In this document: piece by piece, positions 29,260-33,689 of the stretch | Numbering within the stretch: position 1 is the first letter of the stretch | Layout of the letters: the number at the start of each line of letters is the position of its first letter | Assembly (NCBI GenBank): GCA_021204025.1 | Contig: JAJQAC010000073.1 | Span: 1 to 33,689 of the forward strand | Direction: 5' to 3' | Source: Clostridiales bacterium | Lineage (GTDB): Bacteria > Bacillota > Clostridia > Lachnospirales > Lachnospiraceae | Length of the DNA stretch: 33,689 nt | Program-made: the position numbers and the translations under genes | Notes under the pieces: model-generated | Seen by the model: the letters and a program-made list of their open reading frames with translations, nothing else | Databases searched by the model: none | What the model was told of the DNA's origin: nothing

Positions 29260-30624
29260 CTAACCAAAAACTTTTCTTCCGTCAGCATTCGGCAGCCCGA
29301 TCCCGCCCCGGTACTTCGCTACCGTCCGGCGGGATACGGATACTCCCATCTCTGTCAATTTTTCGCATATTTTCTGATCGCTGAGGGGACGATGCTTATC
29401 CTCTCTCTGTACGATTTCCCGGATATACTCCTGGATTTTCTCCGGCGTCTGCGCGCTCTCTGTCTCCGGATTTCCCACCGCCTTGGAAAAGAAATAATTT
29501 AACGGGTAAATTCCCCACGGACACTGGAGATATTTTCCTCTCACCGCTCTGCTCACCGTTGACTCATGGATATCCAGCTCGTTTGCCACATCCTGTAGCC
29601 GCAGCGGCCTGCGATTCCCCGGTCCGTTTTCAAAAAATGACTGCTGCAGCCGGACAATCGTCTCCGTCACCTTTGTGAGTGTAGAACCTCTCTGTGTAAT
29701 GCAGTTCATCACCCACTCTGCCTGCCGGAGCTTATTGCTGATATATTCCTTCGTCTCATCGGAATTATCCTCTTTGAGCATCTGACAATAATAACCATTG
29801 ATCCCCATCTTTGGATAAGCGTTGTCATTTAATAATATCTGAAAATAATCTTCAAATTTAACCACGGTAACATCCGGGCGGATATAATGCAGGTTCTCCC
29901 GCGAACTGAAACCGTTCCCCGGCTTCGGATTGAGGCTTCGAATCAGCTCGCAGTTTTTGCGGGCGTCGTCCAGAGAAATATCCAGAACAGCTGCAATCTT
30001 GTGGATCTGATTGCGTCCCAGCAGTTCCAGACAATCCCGGACGATTCGCTTCGCAACCGGAAGATCCCCCGGCATCCGGTCCAGCTGCAGAGACAGACAT
30101 TCTGCCAGATCTCTTGCTCCCACACCTGCCGGCTCTGCCGACTGCAGCATCTCAATATAGGAAACTGCCTCGAATTCTGTCAGACCAAACCGCCTGCACA
30201 GCGCATCGGCGTCCTCTTCCAGATAGCCGCGCGAATCCAGCGAATTTGCCAGATAATACAGCACTTCTTCCTCTCTTTGATCCCGACACAGGGGCGTCAT
30301 CTGCGAATAAACATACTCCGTCAGCGTCTCGTCTTCCCTTGCGGCAACGTTCCACTCTCCGTTCTCACGTGCCTCGTCCCGCTCCGCGCCGTAGTAAACC
30401 CGGTTCTGCTCATCCGTCGCATTCAGCCATTCCAGCTTGCGCTGGATATCCGACATCCGGTCGGTCTCTTCTCTGGTGTGTTCGATTTCCACCAGAGGGT
30501 TTTCCATTTCCTGCTCTTTGACAAACGCTTCCAGCTCCTGATTGTTCATCTGTAGGATTTCCGCGGACTGAATCATCCTTGGGGAAAGCGTTTGTTTTTG
30601 TGTCGCTGATAATTTCATGTCCAT
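29260..30624 (-). CDS. rpoN: RNA polymerase sigma-54 factor
   Basis: A 454-residue sigma-54. Region I at the N-terminus is glutamine/leucine-rich (LSATQKQTLSPRMIQSAEIL, then QMNNQELE) and interacts with activators. The core-binding region spans about 105-300. The DNA-binding HTH (LQDVANELDIHESTVSRAVRGKY) is near residues 340-365, and the RpoN box is SRRTVAKYR, one residue off the ARRTVAKYR consensus, near 435-443. Length is normal. GAGGT is seven bases before the ATG. It lies just upstream of a LevR-type activator and two sigma-54 promoters and on the same strand, suggesting the factor and its main targets are kept together. Its own promoter is of the sigma-70 type. Confidence 0.96.
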   Translation of the reverse strand: MDMKLSATQKQTLSPRMIQSAEILQMNNQELEAFVKEQEMENPLVEIEHTREETDRMSDIQRKLEWLNATDEQNRVYYGAERDEARENGEWNVAAREDETLTEYVYSQMTPLCRDQREEEVLYYLANSLDSRGYLEEDADALCRRFGLTEFEAVSYIEMLQSAEPAGVGARDLAECLSLQLDRMPGDLPVAKRIVRDCLELLGRNQIHKIAAVLDISLDDARKNCELIRSLNPKPGNGFSSRENLHYIRPDVTVVKFEDYFQILLNDNAYPKMGINGYYCQMLKEDNSDETKEYISNKLRQAEWVMNCITQRGSTLTKVTETIVRLQQSFFENGPGNRRPLRLQDVANELDIHESTVSRAVRGKYLQCPWGIYPLNYFFSKAVGNPETESAQTPEKIQEYIREIVQREDKHRPLSDQKICEKLTEMGVSVSRRTVAKYRGGIGLPNADGRKVFG

Positions 30625-30830: not shown

Positions 30831-31040
30831 TTACTCGATTGCGAGCACTTTATAATCCTGATCCTCAACCGCTTTCTTTAACACTGCGTCGTCCACCGCA
30901 CTGCTAAGGCTCACTACCGCGGTTCCCTTCTCGTGGCTGACCTCTGCTCCGGCTACGCCTTCGATTGCTTCCAGCGTCTTTTTCACTCTTGCCTCACAGT
31001 GGCCGCACATCATACCTTCGATTTTCATTGTCTTTGTCAT
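30831..31040 (-). CDS. Possible separately translated CopZ-like chaperone
   Basis: An in-frame ATG at 31040-31038 lies within the copA frame. AAGGAG at 31055-31050 is exactly 9 nt before it. Translation here would give a 69-residue protein ([15 protein letters not shown]...), the normal size of the copper chaperone CopZ, with its CxxC intact. The -1 frame has TGA at 31044-31042, one base before the ATG, exactly where a separate copA would be expected to end. It overlaps the long reading frame entirely, so it is an alternative product, not an extra gene. Evidence is the sequence signals only. Confidence 0.5.
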
Positions 31041-33398
31041 TTCACTCGTCTCCTTTTTTTGATTTTCTTTATCATTCCCGGATCTATCATCGGTAAAGAC
31101 CGCTGATACAACCGCGGATTTCACTTTCTTATCATGGCTTGCGTCCCTGAGTTTGAAAAGATTCAACCGCAGCGCGTTGGATACCACGCAGAAGCTTGAC
31201 AGGCTCATCGCCGCAGCGCCAAACATCGGGTTCAGCTTCCAGCCAAAGAGCGGGATATAAACGCCGGCCGCTAACGGGATCCCGATCACATTATAAAAAA
31301 ACGCCCAGAATAGATTTTCATGGATATTTCTTAATGTCGCGCGGCTTAAACGGATCGCCGCCGGGACGTCGCTTAACCGGCTCTTCATCAAGACCACGTC
31401 CGCGGCGTCGATCGCGATGTCCGTGCCGGCGCCGATCGCGATGCCGATATCCGCACGGGTAAGCGCCGAGGCGTCATTGATGCCGTCGCCAACCATCGCC
31501 ACCTTGCCATGCTCCTTTAACTTACGGATCACACTTTCCTTACCGTCCGGCAGCACGCCGGCGATCACCTCGTCTACTCCGGCCTGTGCGCCGATCGCAC
31601 GCGCCGTCTTCTCATTATCGCCGGTCAGCATCACGACATGGATCCCCATGCCCTGCAGTTCTTTTACCGCCTGTGGGCTGTCTTCCTTGATCACATCTGC
31701 CACCGCGATAATACCGATCAGACTGCTGCCCTTCATAAACAGCAGCGGAGTCTTGCCCTGATCCGCCAGTTTCTCTGCCTGCATCTGCAGCGCCGCGCTC
31801 ACCGGGGTCTGACTACTGATAAACTTAAGACTGCCGCCGGTCAGCTTCTCCCCGTGCCATAACGCCGTCATACCATTGCCCGGCAGCGCCTGGAAGTCTT
31901 CGACTTCTTCCGTCTGCACTCCGGTCTCCTCGGCCTTTGCCAGGATCGCTTTTGCCAGCGGATGCTCGCTCTTTCGCTCCAGCGCATAGGCCGCCGCCAG
32001 CAGTTCTTCTGCACGAAATCCGTCCGCCGGAACCAGATCCGTCACTTTCGGTTCGCCGCTGGTGATCGTACCGGTCTTGTCCAGCGCCACGATCTGCATC
32101 TTACCGGCCTCCTCCAGCGAGACTGCCGTCTTAAAGAGAATACCGTTTTTCGCGCCCAGACCATTTCCCACCATGATCGCAACCGGAGTCGCCAGGCCCA
32201 GTGCGCATGGACAGCTGATCACCAGGACTGAGATTCCACGCGCCAGCGCAAACGCAAAATCCTGCCCTGCCAGCAGCCAGACGATCGTCGTGATGACCGC
32301 GATCGTAATCACCGTCGGTACGAAGATACCGGACACTTTGTCCGCGATCTTGGCAACCGGCGCCTTGGTCGCCGCCGCGTCGCTGACCATACGGATGATC
32401 TGAGAAAGCGTCGTATCCTCACCAACTCTTGTCGCCTCACAGCGGATAAAACCAGACTGGTTCACTGTGGCTGCAGAGACCAGATCACCCGGCGCCTTAT
32501 CCACCGGGATGCTCTCACCGGTCAACGCCGCCTCGTTGACCGCACTGCTGCCGTCCACGATCACACCGTCCACCGGGATATTTTCGCCCGGACGCACGAC
32601 GAAAACGTCGCCTTTATGCACCTGTTCAATCGGCACTGTGACTTCTTCCCCGCCGCGCACGATGACCGCGGTCTTTGGCGCGAGCTTCATCAGGCTCTTG
32701 AGCGCGTCGGTGGTCTTTCCTTTGGAACGTGCCTCCAGCATCTTACCCACAGTGATCAGGGTCAGAATCATCGCCGCGGACTCAAAATAAAATTCCATCA
32801 TATAGGTCATGACCGCATCCATGTCTCCGCGCACCTGCGCGTCCGTCATCGCGAAAAGCGCGTATACGCTCCAGACGAAAGACGCCATGGAACCCATCGC
32901 TACCAGTGTGTCCATATTGGGAGCGCGATGCAAAAGACTTTTAAATCCGCTGATAAAAAATTTCTGGTTGATCACCATGACGATCGCCGCGAGGATCATC
33001 TGCACCAGCCCCATCGCCACATGATTGCCATCAAACCATTTCGGCAGCGGCCATCCCCACATCATATGACCCATGGAAAAATACATTAAGACCAGCAGAA
33101 ATCCCAGCGAAGCGATCAGCCGCCGCTTTAACACCGGTGTCTCCCGGTCTTTCAGTGCGTCTTCATCGGCTGCCGCACGGCCGGAAGTGCCTGCCGCGGT
33201 GCCTTTGACTGACGCGCCGTATCCGGCTTCTTCTACTGCCCGGATAATGTCTGACGTTGCGGCGCTGCCTTCGACTCCCATTGAGTTGGTTAAAAGGCTT
33301 ACGGAGCAGGAGGTGACGCCGGGCACTTTGGATACGGCTTTTTCTACCCGTGCGCTGCATGCGGCGCAGCTCATACCTGTAACATTATATTGCTCCAT
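30831..33398 (-). CDS. copA: Copper P1B-type ATPase with C-terminal CopZ-like domain
   Basis: An 855-residue copper exporter fused to a metallochaperone domain. An N-terminal HMA domain has GMSCAAC (Cys11, Cys14). Eight membrane helices follow, with the transport motif [11 protein letters not shown] in TM6, the actuator TGES, the phosphorylation motif DKTGTIT, the nucleotide-binding SEHPLA region (HP) and GDGINDA. A second HMA domain occupies the last 69 residues (from Met787) with GMMCGHC (Cys798, Cys801). CopA proteins usually end after the last helix, and CopZ is a separate gene of that size. ATG 33398 starts the conserved HMA; AGGGAG lies about 12 nt upstream, rather far. The junction carries a slippery A run and an internal ribosome binding site. 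No CsoR or CopY gene is in the window. Confidence 0.93.
31053..31061 (-). promoter_or_regulatory. A AAA AAG slippery heptamer at the CopA/CopZ junction
   Basis: Codons read CAA AAA AAG in the zero frame, a canonical -1 slippery site of the type used in E. coli dnaX. A -1 shift adds three codons (GGA GAC GAG) then TGA. The seven-A run is also a one-base indel hotspot. Confidence 0.5.
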
Positions 33399-33444
33399 TG
33401 AAATGTTGGATCTCCCTTCTGTGAAATTTGGAAATTGCGTTATT

Positions 33445-33689
33445 GGCAACTCGCCCGTCCCTGAGAGGAAAACATATCCTCCGGGGACAGCTCGCGCTTA
33501 GGTTTCGGGTAGCGGTATTATGTCTATAGGAACTTTATCGGCAACTCGCCCGTCCCTGAGAGGAAAACATATCCTCCGGAGACCGCTCGCGCTTAGGTTT
33601 CGGGTAGCGGTATTATGTCTATAGGAACTTTATCGGCAACTCGCCCGTCCCTGAGAGGAAAACATATCCTCCGGGAACCGCTCGCGCTT
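33445..33689. repeat. 95-bp tandem direct repeat, at least 2.6 copies
   Basis: Units begin at 33445, 33540 and 33635 with an exact 95-base period; the third is cut by the window edge. Units 1 and 2 differ at only two positions, and all differences among the three copies fall within five bases (33485-33489, 33580-33584, 33675-33679). Each unit holds a partial hairpin (GTCCC...GAGGA with TCCTC...GGGAC, best in unit 1). On the minus strand it also holds a weak promoter candidate spanning the unit joint (TTGCCG-N16-CATAAT, 33544-33517), which could drive copA. Confidence 0.9.

Follow-up and report, generated by a model that had tools for sequence, protein, structure and literature searches.

Programmed ribosomal frameshifting in the copA gene of Escherichia coli was reportedly described in 2017 by Meydan et al. 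and by Drees et al. In gut Clostridia, the gene for the copper pump most likely makes two proteins in many lineages as well, to judge from the locus described here and its relatives. For E. coli, the accessible part of the source states that -1 frameshifting in copA yields a putative copper chaperone of 70 aa, encoded at the gene's 5' end (PMC5009743). Another way of obtaining two products from one gene is found in phage endolysins of the CTP1L/CD27L type, where an in-frame Shine-Dalgarno (SD) sequence in the linker lets the C-terminal domain be made by itself and altering this site abolishes the small product, as given in the available portion of PMC4777826. The CsoR regulon of gut Firmicutes, in turn, is described in the accessible sections of PMC4938975 as holding CsoR and CopA but not CopZ, which is called noteworthy there. 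In the literature searched, with subscription journals mostly outside reach, no report of an internal start in copA was recognised.

The window, meaning the whole 33,689-nt stretch of DNA that was analysed, carries a fused copA-copZ gene on its minus strand (30831 to 33398; all gene and junction features given below lie on this strand). Its reading frame opens with the ATG at 33398 and stays unbroken until the stop at 30831, giving 855 aa counted from that ATG, and a TTG upstream at 33449 is in frame too. The encoded domains are, in order, an N-terminal HMA (metal-binding) domain (33219 to 33389; PF00403, 64.2 bits), a P1B-type copper ATPase, a linker and a C-terminal CopZ-like HMA domain. Pfam assigned E1-E2_ATPase, Hydrolase and two HMA stretches to the product, and its score for the copper-translocating P-type ATPase model TIGR01511 (584.9 bits, cut-off 397) identifies it as a P1B-type CopA. 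The coding stretch of the putative free CopZ-like chaperone (30831 to 31040) comprises 69 aa with the motif GMMCGHC, the CxxC codons lying at 31007 to 30996. This C-terminal domain has both the HMA match (PF00403, 52.8 bits; cut-off 24.8) and the CxxC motif looked for in a CopZ, and its PDB matches (n = 11) include the CopZ entries 6ff2, 1k0v and 2qif. It is named CopZ-like here, and not a CopZ equivalog, because it scored under all the NCBIfam CopZ cut-offs (57.2 against 85, 54.3 against 91 and 46.7 against 95 bits). An Rfam scan of the window returned no matches.

Between the last ATPase helix (NALRLN) and the CopZ-like domain lies a fast-evolving linker (31041 to 31160), at whose end the zero frame reads AAT CAA AAA AAG GAG ACG AGT GAA ATG ACA. 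All the elements that a sequence-only reading had noted between the copper ATPase and the CopZ-like domain were confirmed: an A7 run (CAA AAA AAG; 31054 to 31060), an internal SD, AAAGGAG, within the codons AAA AAG GAG (31050 to 31056), a TGA in the -1 frame (31042 to 31044) and, 9 nt past the SD, an in-frame ATG (31038 to 31040), which is the proposed start of free CopZ. That reading took the junction to be built for more than one product; this appears to hold for the internal ribosome-binding site and ATG, which would be the working part, and not for the slippery site. Among the three products that it listed, CopA-CopZ and free CopZ find support and a terminated CopA does not.

We consider it very probable that one mRNA gives CopA-CopZ by read-through and a free 69-aa CopZ by in-frame internal initiation. 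Ribosomes from the copA start at 33398 would cross the linker uninterrupted and make the 855-aa pump with its C-terminal CopZ-like domain. Other ribosomes would bind the internal SD (31056 to 31050) and use the ATG at 31040, which shares the pump's frame, as their start; this internal initiation would supply a free 69-aa CopZ-like chaperone able to carry Cu(I) to the pump. An ordinary copZ ribosome-binding site would have been retained inside the reading frame, with both outputs under selection, and slippage at the A7 would play no part. The sequence alone gives the kept in-frame fusion, the SD and ATG kept at the nucleotide level and an mRNA that is open around the ATG. From these we infer initiation in cells, a stable free protein that would accumulate, and its role as a Cu(I) chaperone.

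As in E. coli copA, a single copper-ATPase gene would here yield a pump and a free putative chaperone of about 70 aa. E. coli uses the 5' end and a -1 frameshift, whereas here the C-terminal domain and in-frame internal initiation would be used, and no slippery site is conserved. The likeness to the CTP1L/CD27L endolysins, as far as the accessible text on them goes, consists in an SD in the linker, an in-frame internal start and, as proposed here, the C-terminal domain alone beside the full protein; the linker has the conserved SD, proper spacing and in-frame start of CTP1L-like genes. The two differ in that the endolysin is a phage lysis enzyme whose small domain assembles with the full enzyme, whereas the gene described here encodes a host metal pump. 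Split Clostridia loci, with copA followed by a separate copZ-like gene, hold the same two modules, but copA there stops before the second gene (e.g., L275 to L283, L289, L294, L295 and L297 to L303). Serving as a positive control, these split genes have an SD of at least 5 nt at the matching start in 26 of 26 cases.

Relatives were sampled at several taxonomic depths, with loci chosen by the authors and biased to strong matches. The family-level search covered 200 genomes, 188 of them with matches, from which 29 new loci and 100 stretches chosen among the matches listed were used. The class-level search covered 148 genomes (133 with matches) and supplied 30 loci, one being the window's own, and 60 stretches, about 40 of which were picked as looking split or partial and 20 as looking fused. 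The named-genome set consisted of the best 80 of 592 confirmed stretches. A first pipeline, based on regular expressions, gave 157 anchored rows, made up of 152 fused (147 non-identical) and 5 unfused, with L002, L024 and L095 lacking an anchor. It was replaced by a profile-HMM pipeline because 17 of the 80 named-set loci had no anchor. The profile-HMM pipeline handled 334 loci, a total in which some places occur more than once and the locus of the window is included, and anchored 329 at the ATPase end (all except L002, L024, L161, L163 and L164). Once repeats of the same junction and junctions whose CxxC could not be read had been taken out of the fused set, 277 distinct fused junctions remained.

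Within the same genus (24 genomes, own included), 23 genomes had a match and 22 a fused copper ATPase, the remaining match (G021) being a short HMA stretch. Among the 329 anchored loci, the C-terminal HMA stood in one open frame in 287, followed as a split gene downstream (in another frame or past a stop) in 26 and was absent within 700 nt in 16; the fused share is not a prevalence because the loci were hand-chosen among the matches listed, leaning to strong ones. Fused junctions of the class-level set span 26 family codes. To judge from this spread, the copA-copZ fusion is no recent joining of two genes. Linker length varied from 27 to 261 nt (9 to 87 codons) in 142 relatives, and most linkers were closed in both other frames (+1 open in 6 of 142, -1 in 4 of 142).

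On an ATPase tree of 68 chosen loci, built by a quick method with a midpoint root and with 26 of 65 inner branches weak, the fused/split label can be explained by 2 changes, where shuffled labels need 17.6. Nineteen of the loci labelled split have copZ-like as a gene of its own and form a single well supported group; the remaining one, L354, has no C-terminal domain (no HMA within 700 nt at its junction, L286) and sits among fused loci. Five fused rows group with the split clade. Because of these rows, the midpoint root and the weak branches, the tree does not give the order of the two states; the fused form may be older or younger than the split one, and transfer may have occurred from one lineage to another. 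Divergent second copies of copA were seen in G013 and G001 (L025 and L026); they are fused too and have their own internal SD and ATG, and L026 falls on the split side of the tree.

The internal SD and ATG were examined across the same junctions. Within the genus, AAGGAG followed by ATG a few codons later was present in every one of 22 junctions. Among the 277 distinct fused junctions, an in-frame ATG at the HMA start occurred in 264, and the SD matched at least 5, 6 and 7 nt in 240, 202 and 142, respectively. Matches of at least 5 nt were found in 128 of 148 junctions of the genus and family sets, 65 of 79 of the named set and 47 of 50 of the class-level set; 25 of the 26 class-level family codes have at least one such junction, and f10 has none in both of its fused loci. 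The fused gene with an in-frame ATG was present in Ruminococcus albus (SD of 8 nt), Schaedlerella arabinosiphila and Hornefia butyriciproducens (7 nt each), Acetatifactor muris (6 nt), R. flavefaciens and Gemmiger formicilis (5 nt each) and Butyrivibrio sp. FCS014, where the SD match is merely 4 nt. It was also present in MAGs labelled Christensenella (7 nt) and Treponema (5 and 6 nt). The Treponema-labelled MAG contigs with fused copA-copZ (L199 and L224) may reflect horizontal transfer or a binning error.

Matches of this length are rare at other internal ATGs. In the window, the internal CopZ start has the sole 7-nt SD match among 338 in-frame internal ATGs (open reading frames of at least 200 codons, non-genic ones included). 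Among 142 internal CopZ starts of the relatives, SD matches of at least 5, 6 and 7 nt were observed in 130, 112 and 82; the figures 130 of 142 here and 128 of 148 above, for a nearly identical set, differ because the two pipelines pick the ATG by slightly different rules. Other in-frame ATGs within the relatives' ATPase part had such matches in 113, 28 and 0 of 1264, the 7-nt match thus standing at none of 1264 against 82 of 142. Synonymous recoding by the ATPase's codon usage gave means of 78.5, 44.5 and 21.2 and maxima of 97, 62 and 33 in 1000 draws. This null is large (78.5 of 142 at 5 nt or more) because the Lys and Glu codons present permit AAGGAG.

Codon choice at the SD departs from that of its surroundings. 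The Glu codon at -12 was GAG in 108 cases and GAA in 5, against 42 and 218 among the flanking codons (Fisher p = 1.3e-51), and the Lys codon at -15 was AAG in 74 and AAA in 14, against 71 and 244 in the flanks (p = 4e-26). The SD occupies all three codon frames (109, 20 and 2 of 131), and the encoded residues therefore vary, e.g., KE or KGE. Across families, identity was 0.297 at fourfold third bases of the ATPase end, 0.343 in the linker and 0.754 at the SD (414 pairs, 30 loci). These patterns indicate that the internal SD is selected as nucleotides, synonymous positions included, and not as residues. The mRNA is also open at this place: the mean 40-nt MFE was -0.83 kcal/mol centred on the ATG against -7.31 kcal/mol in the ATPase, the least structured window tested, and the ATG region was more open than its synonymous recoding in 114 of 142 relatives. 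Residue and base composition explains most of this drop in MFE, the null already lying at -2.09 against an observed -0.92. The greater openness relative to the null also extends over the neighbouring windows between -30 and +45 and is not confined to the ATG.

Conservation of the SD might be given a meaning other than initiation. The SD and ATG could be inert leftovers of an old copA-copZ fusion, with the fusion protein as the sole product, and the ordinary SD before the second gene in the 26 split loci does suggest that the fused form may have inherited its own. We judge this very unlikely, since the other synonymous positions are saturated and the SD has kept its identity across families, with a synonymous bias of its own, and since the fused/split label requires two changes on the ATPase tree. 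A conserved SD would equally suit a translation pause that aids membrane insertion or folding of the pump and is no start at all. SD-like stretches past the last membrane helix could slow ribosomes. The SD, however, keeps a set distance from the ATG (8 nt, counted from the GGAGG end, in 104 of 131) and not from the membrane helix, from which the variable linker separates it; the ATG itself is conserved, and in L110 the SD and ATG stand together before the second HMA. A pausing role in place of initiation is, on these grounds, highly improbable.

The A7 run would offer a different route to two products. Programmed -1 frameshifting or transcriptional slippage at this run, as the sequence-only reading had suggested, would produce a truncated CopA ending at the TGA; the zero frame does hold the canonical A AAA AAG with a -1 stop shortly after, and frameshifting is recorded for E. 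coli copA in the accessible part of PMC5009743. The relatives make such slippage most unlikely as the conserved device. The A7 stands directly before GGA in just 5 of the 277 distinct fused junctions (L001, L003, L077, L130 and L203), and within the genus an A7 directly before GGAG is confined to the window species and to G006, its nearest relative, with other A7 runs placed elsewhere in some linkers. Of the 142 linkers, 41 contained A7 or a longer run, about as many as synonymous codon choice predicts (39.3 +/- 4.5); lysine-rich linkers and the A-rich start region account for these runs. The 142 linkers do not share a slippery heptamer closely followed by a stop in another frame, as E. coli-type copA frameshifting would require: zero-frame X XXY YYZ heptamers occurred in 36, against 44.7 +/- 4.9 expected, and the -1 stop is generic, that frame being open in merely 4. 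The truncated product would moreover differ from the fusion by the loss of CopZ only, and nothing seems to point to rare slippage at the A7 in the window species. The homopolymer at the junction could also betray a recent fusion of two genes through a single indel, which the sequence-only reading had offered as its other account, or an A run that was misassembled. Both are almost certainly wrong and are already refuted by the relatives, as the in-frame fusion is common to 22 of 24 same-genus genomes, to the family, to the 26 class-level family codes and to 287 of 329 anchored loci, and the A7 before GGA is as rare as stated. The same reading held that it would be refuted if all relatives kept the fusion in frame while lacking the slippery run or the ribosome-binding site; the fusion is indeed kept and the slippery run is mostly absent, but the ribosome-binding site is kept.

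Some junctions depart from the pattern and count against the preferred reading, in which free CopZ would arise by internal initiation. An in-frame ATG is missing from 13 of the 277 distinct fused junctions, and the SD match falls short of 5 nt in 37, a number that includes those 13. In L110 (G094:C38:8533-9305), the CopA frame runs on through two C-terminal HMA domains; the first has no start, and the second follows AAGGAGGAACTGAGATG, with the SD and an in-frame ATG before it. L140 (G153:C21) has no internal ATG and instead reads GAGGAGG followed by an in-frame TTG, a possible non-ATG internal start. In L140 and L101, both without the ATG, and in L074, which has the ATG and an SD match of 4, the junction is followed by a separate HMA gene that has an SD of its own. 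Some of the exceptions may therefore have moved or replaced the internal start.

The idea that a stand-alone CopZ makes up for a missing internal start was examined in a survey of small HMA frames (<170 aa) in 21 genomes, 7 without and 14 with the internal start, and the scores did not establish it. The best frames scored 62.7, 51.6, 48.8 and then at most 34.6 bits in the former, and 53.7, 53.6, 47.8, 46.4, 45.4 and then at most 42.0 bits in the latter. No small HMA frame was found in G217 and G171, both with the internal start. The other 19 of the 21 genomes do contain a further small HMA frame, so that a free HMA protein could nearly always have a source besides the internal start. The window's own genome has four HMA matches, two of them within copA. 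By eye, the third is a 131-aa frame adjoining the operon and apparently membrane-anchored, and the fourth is a 97-codon frame (92-aa open reading frame) beside an apparent second metal ATPase gene.

We think it likely, though with less assurance than for the locus itself, that in much of the class Clostridia CopZ has been annotated away and exists both as the C-terminal domain of CopA and as a free protein from a selected internal start, that both forms are kept across about 25 families, and that their ratio is set by two ribosome-binding sites on one CsoR-controlled mRNA, which would explain the apparent absence of CopZ from the CsoR regulon of gut Firmicutes. If so, the 'missing' CopZ of that regulon may be accounted for by a chaperone encoded within copA, and a one-frame gene call would report one protein where two are made. 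The 3' end and in-frame initiation would then form a second route to what E. coli reaches by frameshifting at the 5' end. About 260 natural junctions are at hand for studying internal starts that coexist with ribosomes passing through.

The surroundings of the gene offer some further observations. By eye, a CsoR-like gene lies just past the end of the window, upstream of copA; in L163 (about 1459 to 2400, contig C71, just outside the window), it is seen together with the 131-aa-frame HMA protein. Two similar palindromes of the ATACCCCGGCAGGGTAT type, also recognised by eye, precede the CsoR-like gene and may be compared with the dual CsoR sites mentioned in the accessible part of PMC4938975. 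On the other side of copA-copZ, the downstream gene (29260 to 30624, minus strand) resembles the sigma-54 factor RpoN, judged by eye from its translation. A tandem array of 95-bp units stands directly upstream of copA (33440 to 33689 and beyond), with 2.6 copies in the window, and continues past its end, adjoining an N-masked stretch. The core of this array, GTCCCTGAGAGGAAAACATATCC, has 30 occurrences in the genome at no more than 1 mismatch (control 0), and its copies often form inverted pairs 76 to 164 bp apart, that is, a dispersed palindromic element.
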